A stretch of 64,000 bases of DNA from Candidatus Microthrix parvicella Bio17-1. GTDB taxonomy: Bacteria; Actinomycetota; Acidimicrobiia; Acidimicrobiales; Microtrichaceae. This document shows, in pieces, positions 95-36,664 of this stretch; the stretch's first letter is position 1, and each line of letters begins with the position of its first letter. The notes under the pieces were generated by a model. It was given only the letters and a program-made list of their open reading frames with translations, did not search any database and had not been told where the DNA came from. The position numbers were made by a program, and so were the translations under genes. The stretch covers positions 1,488,001 through 1,552,000 of the forward strand of contig NZ_AMPG01000001.1 of the NCBI RefSeq assembly GCF_000299415.1, given 5' to 3'.

Positions 95-661
95 TCAGTC
101 GGTCTTGATGGCCGACACGTCAAAGTTGAGGGTGACCTTCTCGCCCACCAGGACGCCACCCGTGTCGAGGGCGGCGTTGAAGTTGAGGCCCCAGTCCTTT
201 CGGTTGACCACCACTGATCCCTCCAGCCCCATTCGGTGGTTGCCAAAGGGATCGATCGCGGTGCCGGCGAACTCAAACTCCACGACGACCGGCTTGGTCA
301 CGCCTCTCAGGCTGAGGTCGCCGGTGACCCGGTAGGTGTCGTGTCCGGCCGCCTCGATGCTGGTGGACGCAAACGTGATCCGGGGGTGGTTCTCCATGTC
401 GAAAAAGTCGTTGCCCCGCAGGTGGCCATCGCGATCGGCGTTGCCCGTGTCGATGCTGTCGGCCAGGATGTCCAACTTCAGGTGGGAGTTGGACGGGTTC
501 TCCTGATCGAAGTAGCCGGTGCCCTCGAAGGTTCGGAAGGCGCCGCGCACCTTGGTGATCATGGCGTGGCGGGCCACGAACCCAACCTCGCTGTGGGACG
601 GGTCGATCATGTAGGTGCCGGTGGCGATCGCCGGTGTGGTCGTTGCTGTGTCGGTGCTCAT
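95..661 (-). CDS. YceI family protein (188 aa), probably lipid/isoprenoid-binding
   Basis: This is a single YceI lipocalin-like beta-barrel domain, the family that binds polyisoprenoids or other amphipathic lipids. The typical opening GTYMIDPSHSEVGFVARHAMITKVRGAF is seen near residues 16-45, followed by the DHLRGNDFFD segment and a central GDLSLRGVTKPV strand. The length matches cytoplasmic single-domain members, and no signal peptide is visible. I start at the ATG at 661, which has GGAG six bases upstream, rather than the upstream in-frame TTG at 673. The gene diverges from a MarR regulator across a palindrome, so MarR control is likely. Its domain is also found in the two fusion proteins at 31.8 and 34.4 kb. 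Confidence 0.92.
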   Translation of the reverse strand: MSTDTATTTPAIATGTYMIDPSHSEVGFVARHAMITKVRGAFRTFEGTGYFDQENPSNSHLKLDILADSIDTGNADRDGHLRGNDFFDMENHPRITFASTSIEAAGHDTYRVTGDLSLRGVTKPVVVEFEFAGTAIDPFGNHRMGLEGSVVVNRKDWGLNFNAALDTGGVLVGEKVTLNFDVSAIKTD

Positions 662-680
662 GGTGTACTCCAAGGGGGGT

Positions 681-21401: not shown

Positions 21402-21439
21402 ATACCCTCCGGGTGTACATGGATACCCCCCTAGGGTAT
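21402..21439. promoter_or_regulatory. Two CsoR-type copper operators upstream of csoR-copA
   Basis: The downstream site has arms ATACCC (21423-21428) and GGGTAT (21434-21439) around a five-base spacer, the TACCC-n-GGGTA form typical of CsoR. It overlaps the TATGAT -10 box at 21437-21442. A second, weaker copy, ATACCC/GGGTGT, lies at 21402-21416 in the -35 region. Together they fit repression of csoR and copA released by Cu(I). Confidence 0.75.
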
Positions 21440-21442
21440 GAT
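21437..21442 (+). promoter_or_regulatory. -10 element of leaderless csoR promoter
   Basis: TATGAT ends exactly 6 bases before the ATG at 21449 and shares its first bases with the CsoR operator. Confidence 0.7.
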
Positions 21443-21448
21443 GGACCC

Positions 21449-21751
21449 ATGAGCGATGATGCGGACGTTGCGCCTGGGTATGCAGAGACCAAGGCCGCGC
21501 ACCTGCGGCGGCTGCGGCGCGTCGAAGGCCAGGTGCGCGGCCTGCAACGGATGATCGAGGACGACAAGTACTGCATCGACGTGCTGACGCAGATCTCAGC
21601 CGCCAATCGGGCGTTGCAGTCCGTCGCATTGAACCTGCTGGACGAGCACCTCCACCATTGCGTCGCCCATGCCGTGACCACCGGGGGCGACGAGGCCACC
21701 GTCAAGCTCAACGAGGCCTCGGCAGCCGTTGCGCGCCTCGTCCGCAGTTGA
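21449..21751 (+). CDS. csoR: CsoR-type copper-sensing repressor (100 aa)
   Basis: This is an all-helical DUF156/CsoR protein: HLRRLRRVEGQVRGLQRMIEDDKYCIDVLTQISAANRALQSVALNLLDEHLHHCV. The Cu(I) ligands C42, H67 and C71 are present with the exact 25- and 4-residue spacing of the mycobacterial protein, which supports copper rather than nickel or formaldehyde sensing. It should repress its own promoter through the operators just upstream and release when copper binds. copA begins 46 bases downstream on the same strand. Confidence 0.93.
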   Translation: MSDDADVAPGYAETKAAHLRRLRRVEGQVRGLQRMIEDDKYCIDVLTQISAANRALQSVALNLLDEHLHHCVAHAVTTGGDEATVKLNEASAAVARLVRS

Positions 21752-21796: not shown

Positions 21797-24166
21797 ATGA
21801 CGACTCACACCCTTTCCACCAAACCCGGCGACGCCGCATCGCCGGACCTCTGCTCCCTCGACCCCACCGAGCTGTCGGTCAGCGGCATGTCGTGTGCCAG
21901 TTGCGCCGCCAAGGTCGAACGAGCGCTGAACGAGCAGGTCGGTGTCACCGCCACGGTGAACTACGCCACCGCATCGGCCTACATCAACCGTGACTCGACC
22001 ACCCTCACCGTCGACGACCTCATCGGGGTGGTTGAGGGTCTGGGCTACGGCGCCGAACCCGCACCAACGGACAACGACGACCTGGAGGAGGCGGCCGAGG
22101 CTGATGACGCCGCCGCCAAGGCACAGGTGCACGACCTGAAGATTCGCTTTTGGGTCTCGGCCGCGCTGGCCCTGCCGGTCATGGTGATCTCGATGGTGCC
22201 GGCCTGGCAGTTCCGAGGCTGGCAATGGGTTGCGCTCGCATTGACCACCCCCGTGGTGGTGTGGGGAGCACTTCCGTTTCACCGGGCGACGTTGACCAAC
22301 CTGCGGCACGGGACGACCACCATGGACACGCTGGTCTCGCTGGGCGTCTTGGCCGCCTACGGGTGGTCGCTCTGGGCGCTGTTCTTCGGCGGCGCCGGTG
22401 AGCTGGGCATGAAGATGGATATGAGCTGGCTGCCCGCCACCACCGGTTCGGGGGGCATGGGGGACATGCCCGGCATGGACCACACAAGCGGCGCCGCCCC
22501 TCACGAGCTGTACCTCGAGGTTGCCGCTGTCGTCCCCACGTTCCTGCTGGGCGGACGATGGGCAGAAGCCAGGGCCAAGCGCCGTGCAGGTTCGGCGCTT
22601 CGCTCGCTGCTGCGGCTCGGGGCACAGGAGGCACGGGTGGTCGCCGCAGACGGCACCGAGGTCACCGTGCCCGCCTCCGCGGTGAACGTAGGACAACTCC
22701 TCGTCGTGCGCCCCGGGGAGCGCGTCCCCACCGACGGGGAGGTCACCGGTGGCACCAGCACCATCGATGCCAGCCTGCTCACCGGCGAGTCAGTGCCGGT
22801 GGAGGTGGTCCCCGGCGATGCGATCACCGGCGCCACGGTCAACCTGTCGGGTCGCCTCGAGATGCGTGCCACCAGGGTGGGGTCCGACACACAGCTGGCG
22901 CGCATGGGTCGTTTGGTCCGTGACGCCCAGGCCGGCAAGGCCGACGCACAACGCCTGGCCGACCGGGTATCGGCCGTATTCGTTCCCATCGTGCTCCTGA
23001 TCGCCGCCGCTACCCTGACGGCCTGGCTGGCCCTCGGGCAGCCGGTCGATGCCGCCATCGCGGCCGCCGTTGCCGTGTTGGTGATCGCGTGTCCGTGCGC
23101 ACTCGGCCTGGCGACGCCCACCGCCCTTCTGGTTGGTACCGGCCGTGGCTCACAGCTGGGCCTGCTGATCAGCGGACCGCAGGTGTTGGAGGCCACCCGG
23201 GATATCGATGTGATGGTTTTGGACAAGACCGGCACGATCACCGAGGGAATCATGTCCCTCGTCGATGTGGTGCCCGGCCCCGGGACCGAGCGGGCCGAAC
23301 TGCTCCGCCTGGTCGGCTCCGCCGAGTCGGGCAGCGAGCACCCCATCGCAGCTGCAATCACTGACGCTGCACGCTACGAGTTGGGCGATCTGCCCCCCGT
23401 CGAGTCATTAACCAACCATCCGGGGCTGGGGGTTCGAGCCACCGTGATCTCTTCCGGCGAGCACACCCTGGTTCTGGTCGGCCGTCCCGGTCTGCTCGCT
23501 GATGAAGGTCTGGTGTGGCCCGAGGGTCTGAGGTCTCGCGCGGACGAGTTGGGGTCGGACGGGGTCACGGTGGTCGCCGCCGGTTGGGACGGCACGGTGC
23601 GCGGGTTGCTCACGGTGGCCGACACGGTGCGGCCCGACAGCGAGCGGGCGATCGCCGCGCTCGTCGAGCACAACATCACCCCGTGGATGGTCACCGGCGA
23701 TGCCGAGCCGGTGGCTCGGGCGGTTGCCGAGCAGGTGGGCATCGACCCCGATCACGTCGTGGCCGGGGTCATGCCCGAGGACAAGGTCGCCATCGTCGCT
23801 CGGCTTCAGGGCGAGGGGCACCGTGTGGCCATGGCGGGAGATGGGGTCAACGATGCCGCCGCGTTGGCCACTGCCGATTTGGGCATCGCCATGGGTTCGG
23901 GTGCCGACGTGGCGATGGAGGCGTCCGACCTCACCATCGTGTCGGGTGCGCTGATGGGCACCGTCGATGCCATCCGGCTGTCGCGCTCCACGCTGGGCAC
24001 CATCAAGGTCAACCTGTTCTGGGCCTTCGGCTACAACGTGGCTGCGATCCCGCTGGCCGCGGTCGGCCTCCTCACCCCGCTGATCGGCGGGTTGGCCATG
24101 GCGGCGTCATCGGTGCTGGTGGTGCTGAACAGCCTGCGGCTGCGCCGGTTCCAACCCACCCGGTAG
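21797..24166 (+). CDS. copA: Copper-exporting P1B-type ATPase CopA (789 aa)
   Basis: An N-terminal heavy-metal domain with GMSCASC (C33, C36) precedes eight predicted membrane segments. A Met/His-rich loop near residues 210-235 (DMPGMDH) faces outward between early segments. The transport motif CPC is at 432-434, the phosphorylated Asp at D476 in DKTGT, with the TGE loop in LLTGES and GDGVNDAAAL in the ATP domain. The membrane signatures GYN and MAASS near the end define Cu(I) pumps. AAAGGA precedes the ATG. With csoR it forms a copper-export operon. The same window encodes putative copper monooxygenases. Confidence 0.95.
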   Translation: MTTHTLSTKPGDAASPDLCSLDPTELSVSGMSCASCAAKVERALNEQVGVTATVNYATASAYINRDSTTLTVDDLIGVVEGLGYGAEPAPTDNDDLEEAAEADDAAAKAQVHDLKIRFWVSAALALPVMVISMVPAWQFRGWQWVALALTTPVVVWGALPFHRATLTNLRHGTTTMDTLVSLGVLAAYGWSLWALFFGGAGELGMKMDMSWLPATTGSGGMGDMPGMDHTSGAAPHELYLEVAAVVPTFLLGGRWAEARAKRRAGSALRSLLRLGAQEARVVAADGTEVTVPASAVNVGQLLVVRPGERVPTDGEVTGGTSTIDASLLTGESVPVEVVPGDAITGATVNLSGRLEMRATRVGSDTQLARMGRLVRDAQAGKADAQRLADRVSAVFVPIVLLIAAATLTAWLALGQPVDAAIAAAVAVLVIACPCALGLATPTALLVGTGRGSQLGLLISGPQVLEATRDIDVMVLDKTGTITEGIMSLVDVVPGPGTERAELLRLVGSAESGSEHPIAAAITDAARYELGDLPPVESLTNHPGLGVRATVISSGEHTLVLVGRPGLLADEGLVWPEGLRSRADELGSDGVTVVAAGWDGTVRGLLTVADTVRPDSERAIAALVEHNITPWMVTGDAEPVARAVAEQVGIDPDHVVAGVMPEDKVAIVARLQGEGHRVAMAGDGVNDAAALATADLGIAMGSGADVAMEASDLTIVSGALMGTVDAIRLSRSTLGTIKVNLFWAFGYNVAAIPLAAVGLLTPLIGGLAMAASSVLVVLNSLRLRRFQPTR

Positions 24167-24251: not shown

Positions 24252-25538
24252 CTAGGTCTGAGCCAGTTGCTCCACCGGGTGCTTGCGCTTGCCCGGGGTG
24301 AAGGTCACCGGCATGTGCTTGATGCCCTGAATGAAGTTGCTGCGTAGACGCTCGGGCTCACCGACCACCTTGATATCAGGCATACGGGTGGCGATTTCGG
24401 TGAAGATGATCCGCAGCTCGGCCTTGGCCAGGTTGGCGCCCAGGCAATAGTGGGCGCCGCCACCGCCGAAGCCGATCTGGTCGTGGGCGTTATGGCGCTC
24501 GATGTTGAAGGTGTCAGGATCCTCGAACACCGTCTCATCCCGGTTGGCCGACACGTGCCACATGACGATCTTTTCGTCAGCGTCGATCTCGACCCCGCCA
24601 AGCTCGGTGGGTGCTGAGCTCTGACGACGAAAGTGCAGCACAGGTGAGCCCCAGCGAACCATCTCGTCCAGCGCGTTGGGGATCAACTCCGGCAGGTTGC
24701 TTTTCAGCAGGTCCCATTGCCCGGGCGTGCTCGACAGCCCGTGCATGCCGTGGCTGGTTGCGTTGCGGGTGGTCTCGTTGCCGGCGACGGACAGCAGCAA
24801 CATGAACATGCCGAACTCGTCGTCCGAGAGCTTGTCGCCCTCGATCTCGGCGTTCAGCAGCTTGGTGACGATGTCGTCCTTGGGGTCGTTGCGACGCTGC
24901 TCTCGCAACTGCTCGGAGTAGATGTACAGCTCGGTGGCCGCTGCGGTGGCCTCCGGCATGTCGGAGACCTCGCCGTCGGCGGTGTATTCCGGGTCCTGGG
25001 CCCCGATCATCGTGTTGGTCCAGTCGAAGAGCAGGCGTCGGTCGCCTTGGGGTACGCCCATGATCTCGGCGATCGCCTGCAGCGGCAGCTCCATGGCCAG
25101 TTCGGTCACAAAGTCGCATTCCCCCTTCTCGATCACGTTGTCGACGATGATCTCGGCACGGTGCTGCAGGTACTGCTCCAACAGGCCGACCATGCGGGGG
25201 GTGAAGCCCTTGTTGATCAGTCGGCGGTACCGGGTGTGCAGCGGAGGGTCGGTGTCGATCAGCAGGCTGCCGCGGCTGTCGAACCCCGACGGTTGTGGCT
25301 GATCGTGCATCAGCGAGCCCTCCATCTGTGAGGAGAACAAGGTGGTGTCGCGGTTCACATGCGTCAGATCACCGTGCCGAACCACATTCCAGAACCCGGG
25401 TGCGCGCGAGTTGGGGTCCTCATGCCAGGAGACCGGGGCCTCCTCCCGCATTCGTCGGAACATGGCATGGTGGTCGCCTCGGACGTATTGGTCCAGGTCC
25501 AGCACGTCGACGAAATCGGGCTGCACTCGCTTGGTCAC
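24252..25538 (-). CDS. Cytochrome P450 (428 aa)
   Basis: The haem-binding loop FGGGGAHYCLGANLAKAEL carries C365. The I-helix has AGNETTRNATSHGM, the ExxR-like region lies in the K helix, and the Arg-pairing segment is HVSANRDETVF. The VFEDPDTFNIERHNAHDQIGFGGG block is close to actinobacterial P450s acting on sterols, fatty acids or terpenes (CYP125/142-like by memory, unverified). Electron donors are not encoded nearby. I start at the GTG at 25538, which has GGGGGA six bases upstream. It diverges from an epoxide hydrolase across a 22-bp palindrome, suggesting common control. Confidence 0.93.
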   Translation of the reverse strand: MTKRVQPDFVDVLDLDQYVRGDHHAMFRRMREEAPVSWHEDPNSRAPGFWNVVRHGDLTHVNRDTTLFSSQMEGSLMHDQPQPSGFDSRGSLLIDTDPPLHTRYRRLINKGFTPRMVGLLEQYLQHRAEIIVDNVIEKGECDFVTELAMELPLQAIAEIMGVPQGDRRLLFDWTNTMIGAQDPEYTADGEVSDMPEATAAATELYIYSEQLREQRRNDPKDDIVTKLLNAEIEGDKLSDDEFGMFMLLLSVAGNETTRNATSHGMHGLSSTPGQWDLLKSNLPELIPNALDEMVRWGSPVLHFRRQSSAPTELGGVEIDADEKIVMWHVSANRDETVFEDPDTFNIERHNAHDQIGFGGGGAHYCLGANLAKAELRIIFTEIATRMPDIKVVGEPERLRSNFIQGIKHMPVTFTPGKRKHPVEQLAQT

Positions 25539-25563
25539 GTTGATTCCCCCAGCATGGGTTGCT

Positions 25564-25583
25564 GCGCCACGCCTTTGTGGCGC
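25564..25583. repeat. Short inverted repeat upstream of the P450 gene
   Basis: GCGCCAC and GTGGCGC are separated by 6 bases. It lies in the expected leader of the P450 transcript and could be a hairpin or a second regulator site. Confidence 0.5.
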
Positions 25584-25594
25584 TTCATGCACAG

Positions 25595-25616
25595 AAACGA
25601 GAACCGGTTCTCGTTT
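25595..25616. promoter_or_regulatory. 22-bp perfect palindrome between P450 and epoxide hydrolase genes
   Basis: Each arm reads AAACGAGAACC toward the centre, with no mismatch and no spacer. The core AACnnGTT resembles TetR-family operators of lipid-catabolism regulators. The site is 57 bases before the P450 start and 138 before the hydrolase start, so one bound regulator could control both genes. The regulator is not encoded next to it. Confidence 0.75.
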
Positions 25617-25753
25617 TTTGCACCATAGAACATTCGTCGTTCAACGGACACATGGAGGTGCGCGCCATCGGTCACAGCACCCACCCGCTCCAGTTCGTCG
25701 CCCCACTGCCGGACGCGACAAGATCGGACCGCAGGGCAACGCGAGGGGGGACC

Positions 25754-26956
25754 ATGACGGCAACCAACAACGACTGGATTGCGCCGCTTCAGGCGGTACA
25801 CACGGCACCGGGTCCGGTCCCCAACGGATTCGAGGCCACCTCAATCAACGTCCCGGACGAGGTCTTGGATGACCTGCGCCTCCGTCTCGGCCACACCCGC
25901 TGGCCCGACGAGCTGCCCGACGCCGGCTGGGCATACGGCACCAACCGCTCCGTCCTTCAGAGTTTGTGCCGTGCCTGGCGTGATACCTACGACTGGCGGG
26001 CCACCGAGGCGCGGCTCAACGCCTGGCCGCAGTACCGCACCGAGGTCAACGGCACGCCCATCCACGTCATCGTCGCCCGCTCGCCCGAACCTGACGCCAT
26101 GCCGTTGCTCCTCACCCACGGGTGGCCCGGCTCGATCACCGAGTTCCTCGACGTCATCGAGCCGCTGCGCAACCCCGCCGCCCACGGAGGCGACGTCGCT
26201 GATGCCTTCCATGTCGTGGTGCCCTCCCTGCCCGGGTTCGGCTTCTCGGGTCCCACCCCCGAACCAGGATGGGATGTGAAGCGGGTGGCCGAAGCCTGGG
26301 CAGAGCTGATGGCAGGCCTTGGTTTCGATCGGTATATCGCCCAGGGAGGCGATTGGGGCAGCTTCGTCTCGACCTGGCTGGGCCTGGTCGACCCCGAACA
26401 CGTGGCCGGCGTTCACCTCAATATGGCGGTCGGCTTTCCTGGCGACGGCGAGATCACCGACGCTGAGGCTGTCGATCTGACCGCCATGGGCGACTTCCTG
26501 GCCAATGGTTGCGCCTACCAGGAGATCCAAGGCAAGAACCCGCAGACCCTGGCCTACGGCCTGAACGACTCCCCCGCCGGTCTGGCCGGATGGATCCTCG
26601 AGAAGTTCTGGGCTTGGACCGACCATGACGGCGACCTGTTCGACGCCGTTGGACAACAGGCGATCCTCGACAACCTCACCACCTACTGGGTCACGGGCAC
26701 CATCGGCAGTTCAACCCGGATCTACTACGAGACGATGAAAACCGGCCGCTTCGCCACCCACGACGCCAAGGTCGAGGTGCCAACCGCCGTCGCCCAGTTT
26801 CCGGCCGAGATCACCAAGCCGCCCCGTTCGTGGGTGGAGGCCGGCTACAACCTCCAGCGCTATACCCGCTACGACCGGGGCGGGCACTTTGCCGCCCTCG
26901 AAGAACCCGACCTGCTGATCGACGATATCCGGGCCTTCGCCCAAACCGTTCGCTGA
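25754..26956 (+). CDS. Epoxide hydrolase of the EHN/alpha-beta type (400 aa)
   Basis: The first 110 residues are the epoxide hydrolase N-terminal (EHN) domain: FEATSINVPDEVLDDLRLRLGHTRWPDEL...YDWRATEARLNAWPQY. The hydrolase core follows, with oxyanion motif HGWPGS, nucleophile D200 in GGDWGSF, and catalytic H378 in RGGHFAALEEPD. These enzymes open epoxides to diols. GAGGGGGG precedes the ATG at 25754. An upstream extension in the same frame has no coding character and crosses the palindrome. Pairing with a P450 suggests an oxidation followed by ring opening on one substrate. Confidence 0.92.
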   Translation: MTATNNDWIAPLQAVHTAPGPVPNGFEATSINVPDEVLDDLRLRLGHTRWPDELPDAGWAYGTNRSVLQSLCRAWRDTYDWRATEARLNAWPQYRTEVNGTPIHVIVARSPEPDAMPLLLTHGWPGSITEFLDVIEPLRNPAAHGGDVADAFHVVVPSLPGFGFSGPTPEPGWDVKRVAEAWAELMAGLGFDRYIAQGGDWGSFVSTWLGLVDPEHVAGVHLNMAVGFPGDGEITDAEAVDLTAMGDFLANGCAYQEIQGKNPQTLAYGLNDSPAGLAGWILEKFWAWTDHDGDLFDAVGQQAILDNLTTYWVTGTIGSSTRIYYETMKTGRFATHDAKVEVPTAVAQFPAEITKPPRSWVEAGYNLQRYTRYDRGGHFAALEEPDLLIDDIRAFAQTVR

Positions 26957-31826: not shown

Positions 31827-33950
31827 ATGACAAACAAGGTGAAGGGCGCCGTGGGCGCCCACCCGGTGTTGGCGGGGTTGGGTGTGCTGGTACTGGTCTG
31901 CGCCGGCGTCGGCGCGTTCGTCTACAACCAAATGTTCGGCCTCCAAACCACCGTCGTCTACTTCGGTGTCCCCGACGCCCCCACCCTCACCGCCAAACCC
32001 GACGAAACCCTGTACCGAATCGACGCCACCAAATCCAAAATCACCTACAACGTCGACGAAAAACTCGCCGGCACCACCCACACCGCCACCGGAACCACCC
32101 GCGGCATCGCCGGTGACATCGCCCTCAACACCAACAACCCCACCACCTCACGCGTCGGCGACATCGTCATCAACGTCCAACAACTCACCTCCGACCAACA
32201 ACTCCGCGACGAACGCCTCCGCCACGACTACCTCGAATCCAACGACTACCAAACCGCCACCTTCTCCCCCACCAAACTCGACGGCCTCCCCACCAAAATC
32301 AGCCAAAACACCCCCTACCCCTTCACCATCACCGGCAACCTCACCGTCAAAGAAACCACCAAACCCGCCACCCTCAAAGCCACCGGCACCCTCAACAACA
32401 ACACCCTCACCATCAACGCCACCACCACCATCTCCCTCTCCGAATTCAACATCGGCCCCATCAACATGGTCGGCTTCGCCCAATCAGGCGACAACGCCAA
32501 ACTCACCTTCAACCTCACCGCCATCAACGCCGCCGACTTCGAAGACACCGACCGCGTCGCCGCCGAACCAACACCCCAACCCCCCAAACCCACCAACACC
32601 TCACCCTCCTTCGCCAAACAGGTCAAACCCATCCTCGAAACCAGCTGCGCCTCATGCCACCAAACCGGCGAAGCAGGCGCACCCTTCTGGGAACTCACCA
32701 ACGCATCAGACGCCGTCCGAATCGCCGACGGCCTCGCACTCATCACCAAATCCGGCTACATGCCCCCCTTCCTCGCCACCAACAAAGGCATCCCCCTCCA
32801 ACACGACCCACGCCTCACCACCACCCAAATCACCACCATCGAAGACTGGGCCAAAGCCGGCGCCCAACTCGACACCCCCAAAACCACCCCCATCAAGGCG
32901 CCCGACGACGTGGCGCTCCACCCGAGGGCCGACAAGACCCTGACGGCGGAGGCCCCCTACCAGGGCTCAACGTCCAAAACCAACGACTACCGCTGCCTGG
33001 TCATGGACCCCCAGGTCACCAAGCCAACCGTCGTGACGGGCTACGAGTTCGTGCCCGACAAGAACGAGTTCGTCCACCACGCGCTCGTGTATCGCATGTC
33101 TGCCGATCGCCGGAAAGGCATCGATGAACGCGACGCCGCGGACCCCGGCACCGGCTACGAGTGCTTCGGCGGCGTGGGCGCAGGCGGCGGTGGGCTGAGC
33201 CCGTCGGGACGATCACGTGGTTCCTCCCTGGTGGCCGGATGGGCGCCCGGAGGTCTGCCTGGCCGCTATCCGGACAACACGGGGCTGAAGCTGGAACCCG
33301 GCGACTTCTTCGTCACCCAGATCCACTACCACTACGTGCACGCTGCACCACCGGACCAGAGCGAACTGGTGCTGCAGGTTGGCGAAGGCGATGCCGCGGA
33401 CTACGACGACGTACAGGTCAGCCAGTACCTCGCACCCGCCGAGATCCCCTGCATGCCCGACGAGAAAGGCCCGTTGTGCACCCGTGAAGCGGCCGTCAAG
33501 GCGCTGGGTGAGGAGTTCGGCCCGGCTGCGCCCATCATCGCCGATGGACTCAACGCCATATGCGGTTCGACCCCGGAGGAGACCGCCAACGTCGACGCCA
33601 ACGGCATCTCGACCACCGGTTGCGAGCACCAGGTTTCCTCCCCCGGCAAGCTCTTGTCGGTCAACGGGCACATGCACGAGTTGGGTCGCACGTTCCGCAT
33701 GACCCTCAATCCCGACACGCCGGATGAGAAGATCCTGCTCGACATCGACCGCTGGGACTTCAACTGGCAGTTCAGCTATGTACCCAAGGAAGACATCACC
33801 CTGACCAAGGACGACGTCATCAAGGTGGAGTGCTCCTGGGACCGCAACCTGATCAACCCCCAGGCGGAACCTCGATGGGTCACCTGGTCCGAGGGCACCG
33901 AAGACGAGATGTGTTTCTCCACGGTCGCCACCGTCAAGCCCCGAGAGTGA
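31827..33950 (+). CDS. Membrane-anchored YceI–cytochrome c–copper monooxygenase fusion, copy 1 (707 aa)
   Basis: One membrane anchor (residues 13-37, PVLAGLGVLVLVCAGVG) puts the rest outside the cell. Residues about 55-240 form a YceI domain (YRIDATKSKITYNVDEKLAGTTH...FTITGNLTVKETTKPATL...). A haem c site CASCH follows (C274, C277, H278). From about 330 comes a full PHM/DBM-type copper type II monooxygenase core: H417-H418 in FVHHALVYRM, HYH at 500-502, HMH at 615-617 and M695 in EDEMC, i.e. ligands for both CuH and CuM. Such enzymes hydroxylate C-H bonds using one-electron donors; the haem domain and the next gene, a cupredoxin, could supply electrons. The substrate is unknown; a YceI-bound lipid is my inference. 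The cupredoxin start overlaps its stop. Confidence 0.85.
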   Translation: MTNKVKGAVGAHPVLAGLGVLVLVCAGVGAFVYNQMFGLQTTVVYFGVPDAPTLTAKPDETLYRIDATKSKITYNVDEKLAGTTHTATGTTRGIAGDIALNTNNPTTSRVGDIVINVQQLTSDQQLRDERLRHDYLESNDYQTATFSPTKLDGLPTKISQNTPYPFTITGNLTVKETTKPATLKATGTLNNNTLTINATTTISLSEFNIGPINMVGFAQSGDNAKLTFNLTAINAADFEDTDRVAAEPTPQPPKPTNTSPSFAKQVKPILETSCASCHQTGEAGAPFWELTNASDAVRIADGLALITKSGYMPPFLATNKGIPLQHDPRLTTTQITTIEDWAKAGAQLDTPKTTPIKAPDDVALHPRADKTLTAEAPYQGSTSKTNDYRCLVMDPQVTKPTVVTGYEFVPDKNEFVHHALVYRMSADRRKGIDERDAADPGTGYECFGGVGAGGGGLSPSGRSRGSSLVAGWAPGGLPGRYPDNTGLKLEPGDFFVTQIHYHYVHAAPPDQSELVLQVGEGDAADYDDVQVSQYLAPAEIPCMPDEKGPLCTREAAVKALGEEFGPAAPIIADGLNAICGSTPEETANVDANGISTTGCEHQVSSPGKLLSVNGHMHELGRTFRMTLNPDTPDEKILLDIDRWDFNWQFSYVPKEDITLTKDDVIKVECSWDRNLINPQAEPRWVTWSEGTEDEMCFSTVATVKPRE
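31863..32896 (+). repeat. 1,034-bp exact direct repeat, copy 1 (anchor + YceI + haem module)
   Basis: It matches 34484-35517 base for base, by line-by-line reading at a constant offset of 2,621. It begins at codon 13 of the fusion gene and stops at the border with the monooxygenase half. Within it Lys is AAA, Glu is GAA and Gln is nearly always CAA; outside, AAG, GAG and CAG dominate. The plus strand is very poor in G. Confidence 0.93.
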
Positions 33951-34366
33951 ACAACCAGCCCGAGCAGACGTCCTCGGTGGAGTCGTCCGAGTCAACCAAC
34001 GGCCCGCGTGCCGGTCGGAGCGGGCGCAACGTGGGCCTTGCCCTCGTCGGGCTCGCCATCATGGTGGCCGTTGGTGGTGCCTGGTTCGCCCTCACCGGAG
34101 GCGCCGCCGACCACCGCTACGTCATCCCGAAGGGCACTGCGGCGCGTCTCGACAATGGCGAACTGATCGAGATCATCCCCCGAGAACTCAGCCTCAAGGC
34201 CGGCGACACGCTGACCGTGGTGAACCATGACGTCGCCGACCACTTCGTGAGCGTCACCCAGGTACCTGCGGGTCAGACCGTTACCTACGAGTTTCCCAGT
34301 CCCGGGGTGTTTGATGGCGCGTGCACCGTGCACCCCCGGGGCTCAGTGCGTATCGACGTCACCTGA
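33947..34366 (+). CDS. Membrane-anchored cupredoxin-like protein (139 aa)
   Basis: After a charged N-terminus, one membrane helix (residues 29-50, VGLALVGLAIMVAVGGAWFAL) anchors a small beta-sandwich outside the membrane. The blue-copper pattern is visible: H99 (VADHFVS), then C126 and H129 in FDGACTVHPRG. The usual axial Met after the last His is absent. Cupredoxins shuttle single electrons. Its GTG start overlaps the stop of the first fusion gene (GTGA), and it is followed by the second fusion gene, so it is the natural electron partner of both. The assignment rests on these motifs only. Confidence 0.75.
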   Translation: MNNQPEQTSSVESSESTNGPRAGRSGRNVGLALVGLAIMVAVGGAWFALTGGAADHRYVIPKGTAARLDNGELIEIIPRELSLKAGDTLTVVNHDVADHFVSVTQVPAGQTVTYEFPSPGVFDGACTVHPRGSVRIDVT

Positions 34367-34447
34367 GACAGCGCCGGGTGGCCTGCCGGGCCGGCATGCC
34401 TCCGGTAGCCTCAATCGCCCGTCCGCCGACCGAAATGAGCACAGTCC

Positions 34448-36664
34448 ATGGTTGGTCGGGTCCGCGGGATGACGGCACAGCATCCGGTGTTGGCGGGGTT
34501 GGGTGTGCTGGTACTGGTCTGCGCCGGCGTCGGCGCGTTCGTCTACAACCAAATGTTCGGCCTCCAAACCACCGTCGTCTACTTCGGTGTCCCCGACGCC
34601 CCCACCCTCACCGCCAAACCCGACGAAACCCTGTACCGAATCGACGCCACCAAATCCAAAATCACCTACAACGTCGACGAAAAACTCGCCGGCACCACCC
34701 ACACCGCCACCGGAACCACCCGCGGCATCGCCGGTGACATCGCCCTCAACACCAACAACCCCACCACCTCACGCGTCGGCGACATCGTCATCAACGTCCA
34801 ACAACTCACCTCCGACCAACAACTCCGCGACGAACGCCTCCGCCACGACTACCTCGAATCCAACGACTACCAAACCGCCACCTTCTCCCCCACCAAACTC
34901 GACGGCCTCCCCACCAAAATCAGCCAAAACACCCCCTACCCCTTCACCATCACCGGCAACCTCACCGTCAAAGAAACCACCAAACCCGCCACCCTCAAAG
35001 CCACCGGCACCCTCAACAACAACACCCTCACCATCAACGCCACCACCACCATCTCCCTCTCCGAATTCAACATCGGCCCCATCAACATGGTCGGCTTCGC
35101 CCAATCAGGCGACAACGCCAAACTCACCTTCAACCTCACCGCCATCAACGCCGCCGACTTCGAAGACACCGACCGCGTCGCCGCCGAACCAACACCCCAA
35201 CCCCCCAAACCCACCAACACCTCACCCTCCTTCGCCAAACAGGTCAAACCCATCCTCGAAACCAGCTGCGCCTCATGCCACCAAACCGGCGAAGCAGGCG
35301 CACCCTTCTGGGAACTCACCAACGCATCAGACGCCGTCCGAATCGCCGACGGCCTCGCACTCATCACCAAATCCGGCTACATGCCCCCCTTCCTCGCCAC
35401 CAACAAAGGCATCCCCCTCCAACACGACCCACGCCTCACCACCACCCAAATCACCACCATCGAAGACTGGGCCAAAGCCGGCGCCCAACTCGACACCCCC
35501 AAAACCACCCCCATCAAACCCAAGGGCAAGGTGATCAACAGAATCGACCCCGACGTCACGTTGCAGGCCGATGCCCCGTACCAAGGCTCCACCAAGCTGA
35601 CCAACGACTACCGCTGCCTGGTCATGGACCCCGAGCTCAAGACCGACACGTCACTGACGGGCTACGAGTTCGTGCCCGACAAGAACGAGTTCGTCCACCA
35701 CGCACTGATCTTCCGTATGGCGGCCGACCTACGCCCCACCGTCGATGCGCGAGACAAGGCCGACCCTGGCACCGGCTACGGATGTTTCGGCGGCGTGGGC
35801 GCCGATGAGGTGGTCCCCAGCCCCAGCGGCATGGGCGGCGGAACCGACCTGGTGGCCGCATGGGCACCGGGACAGAGCAGCGGCACCTTCCCCGACGGGT
35901 CGGGTATGCGCTTGAACCAGGGCGACTTCTTCGTGGTGCAGGTGCACTACCACTTTGTGCACGCGGCACCACCCGACCACTCCGAACTGGCCCTGCGGTT
36001 CGGGAAGGATCCGGTCGACGACTACGACGACATCGCGGTCACCCAGTACCTCGCACCCGCCGAGATCCCCTGCCGACCCGACGAGAAAGGCCCGTTATGT
36101 GGCCGGGACGCCATGATGGACGACCTCGCAGATCGTTACGGATCGTCAGCACCAGTGATCGCCGACGGCCTCAACGGCATGTGCGGCGGCACGCCCGAGA
36201 TGAACGCCAACGTCGATGAGGACGGCATGTCGTACTCATCGTGTGATCACTGGGCCCTGGGGACCGGGCAGGTCGTGTCGGTGTTCGGACACATGCACGA
36301 GTTGGGGGTGGGCTTTCGCCTCACCCTCAACCCGGACACGCCGGACGAGAAGATCCTGCTCGACATCGACCGCTGGGACTTCAACTGGCAACTCAACTAC
36401 GAACCTGCCGACGAGGTGGTGATCAAACCCGGCGACATCGTGCGGGCGGAATGCTCGTGGGACCGAGACCTGATCAACCCACAAACCGAGCCCCGTTGGG
36501 TTTCGTGGGCCGAGGGCACCGAGGACGAGATGTGCTACTCGGCGCTGACCACGCGTGAACAGCATTGGACCGGGACGGAACAGCCACCTGATGGTCCCGA
36601 GATCGAGCCGGGACTGATCGATCCGATCACCCTGGAGGCCGACTCGCCCGAGGCCGCCGACTAG
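34448..36664 (+). CDS. Membrane-anchored YceI–cytochrome c–copper monooxygenase fusion, copy 2 (738 aa)
   Basis: It has the same architecture as the gene at 31827. Residues 13-356 are identical, including anchor, YceI domain and haem site C274/C277/H278. The monooxygenase half is diverged but aligned without gaps through all copper ligands: H417-H418 in FVHHALIFRM, HYH 500-502, HMH 615-617, M695 in EDEMC. It differs mainly around residues 357-368, in the loop after YGCFGGVGA and in a C-terminal tail about 30 residues longer. The ATG at 34448 lies exactly 2,621 bases from the ATG of copy 1, which supports both starts. It ends 10 bases before the convergent DEAD-box gene. Confidence 0.85.
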   Translation: MVGRVRGMTAQHPVLAGLGVLVLVCAGVGAFVYNQMFGLQTTVVYFGVPDAPTLTAKPDETLYRIDATKSKITYNVDEKLAGTTHTATGTTRGIAGDIALNTNNPTTSRVGDIVINVQQLTSDQQLRDERLRHDYLESNDYQTATFSPTKLDGLPTKISQNTPYPFTITGNLTVKETTKPATLKATGTLNNNTLTINATTTISLSEFNIGPINMVGFAQSGDNAKLTFNLTAINAADFEDTDRVAAEPTPQPPKPTNTSPSFAKQVKPILETSCASCHQTGEAGAPFWELTNASDAVRIADGLALITKSGYMPPFLATNKGIPLQHDPRLTTTQITTIEDWAKAGAQLDTPKTTPIKPKGKVINRIDPDVTLQADAPYQGSTKLTNDYRCLVMDPELKTDTSLTGYEFVPDKNEFVHHALIFRMAADLRPTVDARDKADPGTGYGCFGGVGADEVVPSPSGMGGGTDLVAAWAPGQSSGTFPDGSGMRLNQGDFFVVQVHYHFVHAAPPDHSELALRFGKDPVDDYDDIAVTQYLAPAEIPCRPDEKGPLCGRDAMMDDLADRYGSSAPVIADGLNGMCGGTPEMNANVDEDGMSYSSCDHWALGTGQVVSVFGHMHELGVGFRLTLNPDTPDEKILLDIDRWDFNWQLNYEPADEVVIKPGDIVRAECSWDRDLINPQTEPRWVSWAEGTEDEMCYSALTTREQHWTGTEQPPDGPEIEPGLIDPITLEADSPEAAD
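34484..35517 (+). repeat. 1,034-bp exact direct repeat, copy 2
   Basis: This is the second copy of the segment at 31863-32896. The flanks differ at once on both sides: codons 2-12 and everything after the shared ACC-CCC-ATC-AA. Recombination between the copies would delete the first monooxygenase half and the cupredoxin gene while leaving one intact fusion gene. Confidence 0.93.

Follow-up and report, generated by a model that had tools for sequence, protein, structure and literature searches.

Two neighboring genes of Candidatus Microthrix parvicella Bio17-1 encode membrane-anchored proteins in which a YceI domain, a single c-type haem domain and a copper core of the PHM/DBM type follow one another in one chain, an architecture that is real and conserved. 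Both are read from the forward strand of the window, by which we mean the whole 64,000-nucleotide stretch analyzed here (positions 1,488,001 to 1,552,000 of contig NZ_AMPG01000001.1). Fusion A (31827..33950, 707 residues) has an anchor helix at about residues 13-37, YceI at 63-232, the c-haem domain at about 258-345 and the PHM-type core at about 370-705. Fusion B (34448..36664, 738 residues) begins with the same N-terminal module and continues into a diverged PHM-type core with an extra C-terminal tail. Between them lies a probable membrane-anchored cupredoxin of 139 residues with a GTG start (33947..34366, forward strand); all three open reading frames and their starts are as the initial annotation described them. 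We regard it as an evenly balanced proposition that A and B are PHM/DBM-fold copper monooxygenases with a built-in reductase, one shared electron-input module being fitted to two cores.

A Lys or Arg precedes the N-terminal membrane helix of both proteins, and we infer an outward-facing topology for the anchor. The cofactor residues carry the same numbers in A and B: C274-x2-C277-H278 with axial M312 for the haem, H417, H418 and H500 for the CuH site, and H615, H617 and M695 for the CuM site. The anchor, the YceI domain, the CxxCH motif and these six copper ligands had all been named in the initial annotation and are all present; M312 is an addition to that list. H502, which the annotation counted as a further ligand, does not hold up. 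No residue of PHM aligns with it, it is replaced by N, Y or Q in five of seven homologs from other phyla, and it is N in L082 and L083; thus, it is not a general ligand.

By profile, predicted fold and conservation, both cores show the PHM/DBM fold and ligand set. In Pfam, Cu2_monooxygen scored 28.7 bits in A and 25.0 bits in B, below its curated cut-off of 30, and Cu2_monoox_C scored 22.6 and 21.8 bits, below its curated cut-off of 23. When A alone was compared with the PDB by phmmer, YceI and cytochrome chains matched and no PHM or DBH was found at E<=1, and the NCBIfam matches of both fusions were all weak and of the YceI type. A profile built from 21 sequences matched rat PHM (2.7e-11) and human DBH (6.2e-6). 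The best 30 Foldseek matches of the fusion model were all PHM or DBH, with E-values down to 2.2e-13 and TM-scores, by target length, of 0.37-0.67. That AlphaFold2 model has a mean pLDDT of 60, with the haem and copper parts mostly at 60-93; within the core, pLDDT falls below 50 at 448-456, 537-549, 566-587 and 674-694, the last stretch directly preceding M695. The YceI part (pLDDT 29-42) was left unmodelled because the alignment behind the model held one other YceI protein.

All six copper ligands are present in each of 45 aligned sequences, comprising the two from the window, 36 from its order and seven from other phyla, these last being seven of the 19 loci found in a scan of contigs described below. 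(A further alignment, A1, took 17 of the 19, leaving out L009, which is split, and L019, which is cut by a contig end.) In a second alignment, Q498 and Q648 are each kept in 53 of 53 sequences, and they align with the second-sphere Gln residues of PHM that we take to be Q170 and Q272, the latter number also appearing in PDB titles. At the places of R240, N316 and Y318, which bind the peptide carboxylate in PHM, A has N613, F697 and T699, so the peptide-binding residues are not kept. Across the 53 sequences, position 697 is always F or Y, position 699 is T, S, G, A or P in 52, and position 613, the R240 place, is L, F, M, N or W in 51, mostly L, F or M. Judged by these three places, the A and B cores are probably not peptidylglycine-hydroxylating PHM proper.

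The YceI domain scores 90 bits in Pfam in both A and B, above the cut-off of 23.7, and the YceI structures matched by A with phmmer are 1y0g, 7bwl, 5ixh and 1wub. The haem domain matches Cytochrome_CBB3 at about 17.5 bits, below the cut-off of 27; its CxxCH motif and axial Met are kept in 43 of the 45 aligned sequences, the exceptions being L082 and L083, which have no haem site. In the window's genome CcmF was detected (180 bits) and ResB was not. Genes for cytochrome c maturation sit close to the fusion in one family, f34: Pfam identifies CcmF and CcmH on L067 and CcmF, a redoxin and CcmH on L069, and BLASTP places L066 in all three clusters (ccmF, redoxin, ccmH) and L068 in the CcmF cluster. 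A stand-alone YceI protein is also encoded in the window (98-673, minus strand), and contig C4 of the same genome holds a further YceI open reading frame. An additional protein with a mono-haem cytochrome c domain is mentioned for Ca. M. parvicella in PMC8267870, and is possibly one of the two fusions.

The initial annotation proposed surveying this architecture, together with its cupredoxin neighbors, across taxa. Counting as complete any fusion covered by a single match from residue 34 or earlier to residue 675 or later of a 681-residue query, we found the fusion at 55 places; these lie in 51 of the 397 genomes examined from the order and span nine families (f1, f3, f6, f7, f27, f34, f42, f53 and f56). 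Three further fusions are incomplete, in G658 and at a second place in G632 (contig end) and in G707 (two pieces). Matches of any extent at 1e-60 occur in 93 of the 397 genomes, and in 40 of these 93 they start at residue 126 or later, that is, without the whole YceI domain. A smaller, overlapping draw gave 24 places in 21 of 198 genomes. Across the phylum, 8 of 396 genomes carry full fusions, all eight in the same order, and the genomes searched yielded no fusion beyond that order. The 397- and 396-genome searches scored two candidates per genome, so that further copies can be missed, and the genomes, many of them fragmented, were drawn evenly from larger groups. Three genomes (G005, G019 and G675) have two complete fusions on different contigs; adjacent twins were seen only in the window's genome among these 397, many of which are in fragments. 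No neighbor conserved across families was found around the fusions, with genes called crudely by codon position, a procedure that can miss small ones.

The part comprising haem and PHM core has a wider distribution. A scan of a contig set of 84,980 species with six peptide patterns, which is not exhaustive, matched it at 19 loci in Planctomycetota, Myxococcota, Acidobacteriota, Verrucomicrobiota and at least one unassigned bacterium. These proteins likewise place a haem before the same copper core, at 26-35% identity to A, but differ from A and B in their other domains: none of the ten scanned has YceI at E 0.01, three of the ten have a redoxin domain before the haem (L005, L015 and L019), and two have TPR repeats after the core (L018 and L020). 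Within the order, nine relatives without YceI begin like lipoproteins, the lipobox being judged by eye; for L070-L081, the absence of YceI was judged by alignment rather than Pfam. At least one of these YceI-less proteins, L075, is nested among fusions in the haem-PHM tree with support of 0.92 and 0.96. YceI therefore appears dispensable to the core, and this placement suggests that it can be lost from fusions. The trees were built from 53 sequences, all from the order; YceI is present in 41 of these, which belong to the 55 complete fusions, and L082, L083 and the other phyla were left out. Two scans of viral contigs returned no relatives, and a plasmid collection gave one match, in Nonomuraea, to the copper core only. 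The initial annotation had presented the pair as a candidate new system; the architecture is real, but the fusion is a conserved family of one order, and haem-PHM proteins without YceI are found in other phyla as well.

The small protein between the fusions has candidate type 1 copper ligands (H99, C126 and H129) and no Met at the axial position of amicyanin. At E<=1 it has 20 PDB matches, and every one has the cupredoxin fold, a weak but uniform result (best 0.0025). An NCBIfam amicyanin match (0.0012) is far below its cut-off, Pfam at 0.1 gave no cupredoxin and SH3 alone, itself below cut-off, and a single-sequence model (pLDDT 43) was uninformative. We consider the protein probably a membrane-anchored cupredoxin. 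Its GTG start lies inside GTGA, overlapping the stop codon of A by four bases, which suggests that it is translationally coupled to A. The ligands and the stop/start overlap are thus as first annotated, but the gene was found only at this locus: BLASTP at 1e-4 detected no relative among open reading frames of at least 80 residues in 55 loci from elsewhere. The proposed survey of cupredoxin neighbors came up empty; by this search the cupredoxin is not a conserved partner of the fusions, which weakens the earlier reading.

A copper sensor and exporter in the window had also been cited as fitting a copper-using cell. Both genes are real, a CsoR-like metal-sensitive repressor (21413..21751, plus strand; PF02583, 1.1e-28) and a P-type heavy-metal ATPase with an HMA domain (21797..24166, plus strand), but they lie 7.7-10.4 kb upstream of the fusions with other genes between, and we imply no tie to the fusions. 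Adjoining the ATPase is a cytochrome P450 beside an epoxide hydrolase (24255-25592, minus strand, and 25559-26956, plus strand).

Describing A and B as twins captured their like architectures but not how unevenly they have diverged. A 1,034-bp segment covering anchor, YceI and haem (31863..32896, plus strand) is repeated exactly at 34484..35517 (plus strand), so that the YceI domains are identical, whereas the cores share 63% protein identity. The repeat starts at codon 13 and stops at codon 357, inside the linker that joins the haem domain to the PHM core, and this end may reflect where homology allowed recombination. Because the cores are 63% identical and the modules identical, the cores separated earlier than the modules; the two cores group together in the tree with support of 0.98. 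We infer that gene conversion or copying recently made the modules identical or kept them so.

The repeated module also stands out in composition. Its coding strand is 74% A+C, its third positions are C79 A18 G2 T1 as against C53 G32 A8 T7 in A's core, and its codons (31905-32894 and 34526-35515) include AAA 17 to AAG 0, GAA 12 to GAG 0, ACC 53 to ACG 0 and CTC 25 to CTG 1. The amino acid make-up is likewise G-poor, unlike that of 39 orthologs: Thr reaches 16.5% (mean 10.0, maximum 13.9 in the orthologs) and Asn 6.9% (mean 2.1, maximum 4.2). Among 907 windows of 500 bp, taken from the window and twenty stretches of its own genome, the four lowest in G+T all come from the two copies, and A and B have the lowest G3 of 327 genes of at least 150 residues in that genome sample.

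The EF-Tu gene tuf of the same genome (L150:63-1247, also L152) shows the mirror pattern, with third positions G57 T35 C8 A1 and, on L150, Leu codons TTG 24 and CTG 1. It is present twice, in copies that differ at 1 base in 1,185. A tuf match was found in 15 of 33 genomes of the family and, with two partial matches left out, all four genomes with two copies have a C-poor tuf (C3 0.08-0.23); in eight of nine full single-copy genes C3 is 0.37-0.55 (five of the eight from one genus), and it is 0.17 in the ninth (G586). One possibility is that sequences which gene conversion holds near-identical, such as the module and the tuf copies, drift in this lineage to an extreme strand-asymmetric composition.

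Three other accounts were considered and rejected: for the codon bias, a translational optimum, since ribosomal protein genes are ordinary and without the bias, and deamination, since four-fold sites moved to C and not A; for the module itself, import from a known donor, since the best whole-query match outside the genome is 54% identical. The module's best identities in the aligned set are 51% for YceI and 58% for haem. An N-terminal tree places A and B with L048 and L050 at support of 0.11 and 0.50, and the core tree agrees at 0.94 and 0.96. Import from an unsampled relative may have occurred. Elsewhere in the genome, internal near-identical repeats at L101:6127-6937 and L118:1343-1792 are also strand-asymmetric (G+T 0.60-0.67), and a 1.7-kb near-identical dispersed repeat shared by L101 and L107 is without such asymmetry. 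The minus strand of L118, at about 12.6-12.8 kb, has a 494-residue open reading frame with a Ser/Thr-rich repeat tail and a stretch of A/C-ending codons, presumably an ice-binding protein of the DUF3494 type, and L109 has four tRNA-Ser genes in 17 kb, three with anticodon CGA.

As the initial annotation anticipated, we found no description of the combination of YceI, haem c and PHM among the matches listed in the literature searched, and no papers there that bring the YceI and PHM domain names together. PHM and DBH (Cu2_monooxygen/Cu2_monoox_C) have in common with A and B the fold, the CuH and CuM ligand residues and the equivalents of Q170 and Q272. Unlike PHM and DBH, A and B are bacterial, membrane-anchored and fused to haem c and YceI, and unlike PHM, their family has other residues at the R240, N316 and Y318 places.

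Two published systems resemble the N-terminal half. Cbp2D of Cellvibrio japonicus, described as a candidate electron donor to LPMOs, combines CBM2, YceI/X158, FN3 and two cytochrome c domains; its X183 haem domain reduces copper LPMOs, although transfer from CjX183 to the LPMO is slow, and its physiological role is still given as open (PMC8981238). Like A and B, it joins YceI and c-type haem in one secreted chain, with a copper oxygenase as the reduced partner; unlike them, its chain is separate from the oxygenase, which is an LPMO, and no PHM domain is named for it (PMC8981238). A YceI domain of this X158 type was crystallized with ubiquinone-8 (PMC10154616), and in most of the YceI structures solved the barrel contains either ubiquinone-8 or an octaprenyl compound (PMC9113575; PMC10154616). 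YceI lipocalins also pair or fuse with cytochrome b561, BcnA/LcoA being fused in many alphaproteobacteria (PMC9113575). BcnA/LcoA thus resembles A and B in coupling YceI to a membrane haem protein, but is described with b-type membrane haems, no copper core and a part in defence against lipid peroxidation (PMC9113575).

By analogy with Cbp2D and the YceI-cytochrome b561 pairs, we favor YceI and haem as an electron-input module, delivering electrons from quinol to CuH, over YceI as a presenter of substrate. In the proposed route, single electrons would come from a reduced isoprenoid quinone bound inside the YceI barrel, or from a different respiratory donor, and reach the c-type haem at H278/M312, which would in turn reduce CuH (H417, H418 and H500); CuM (H615, H617 and M695) would then activate O2 and hydroxylate a C-H bond of an extracytoplasmic substrate. 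Anchor, YceI and haem would form one module fitted identically to two diverged cores, giving two substrate ranges with one electron supply. Quinone binding, the electron route, oxygenase activity and separate substrates for A and B are all predictions from sequence and comparison. Consistent with the electron-input reading, YceI and haem are shared as a unit, and a redoxin can occupy the N-terminal place elsewhere. The earlier proposal that haem c replaces ascorbate as donor is plausible.

The initial annotation instead assigned YceI the task of capturing an isoprenoid or other lipid and presenting it to the core for hydroxylation, with haem c and the cupredoxin giving electrons. YceI barrels do bind isoprenoids (PMC9113575), Ca. 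Microthrix accumulates long-chain fatty acids according to the title of the Bio17-1 genome paper, and the loss of the PHM peptide-binding residues leaves room for such a substrate. However, A and B have identical YceI domains on cores that differ by 37%, relatives retain the core without YceI, and the cupredoxin has no relative in 55 other loci; with Cbp2D, the YceI-cytochrome b561 pairs and the duplication of YceI and haem as one unit also weighing against it, we consider lipid presentation unlikely. Still less probable, in our judgment, is that the fusions are envelope antioxidants, in which a YceI lipocalin of the BcnA kind, haem and copper remove lipid peroxyl radicals or peroxides with no hydroxylation. 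The model for this is BcnA, a YceI protein that together with a cytochrome b561 guards Burkholderia membranes against lipid peroxidation (PMC9113575), but both copper sites and two second-sphere Gln residues are fully conserved, which points to PHM-type oxygen chemistry.

The same conservation bears on the idea that the PHM-fold protein is an oxidase or a copper-dependent electron relay that hydroxylates no substrate. The open substrate and the lack of a neighbor conserved across families would suit such a role, but all 45 aligned sequences carry the oxygenase ligand sets at CuH and CuM, and we give this reading little credence. A separate concern is whether assembly produced part of the perfect match over 1,034 bp by collapsing two similar but non-identical modules into one consensus. 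Short reads resolve repeats of such length poorly, and the genus is represented by one genome; against this, the window contains no N, the copies lead into copper cores that are clearly distinct genes, and the tuf pair in the same genome keeps its 1 difference in 1,185 bases. An assembly artifact therefore seems rather improbable.

The fusions bear on two questions: how a PHM/DBM-type enzyme obtains single electrons without ascorbate as donor, and what role a YceI domain plays once linked to a cytochrome. Since nine families of one order have copper core and presumed donor module on one chain, both become addressable on a single polypeptide, and the A/B pair offers a natural domain swap. On a broader view, which we hold to be less likely than not, the fusions would constitute a self-sufficient family of the PHM/DBM class, fed from the membrane quinone pool through in-chain YceI and haem c without ascorbate, in which one reductase module is kept while the cores diversify, and the window's genome would catch this process in the act.
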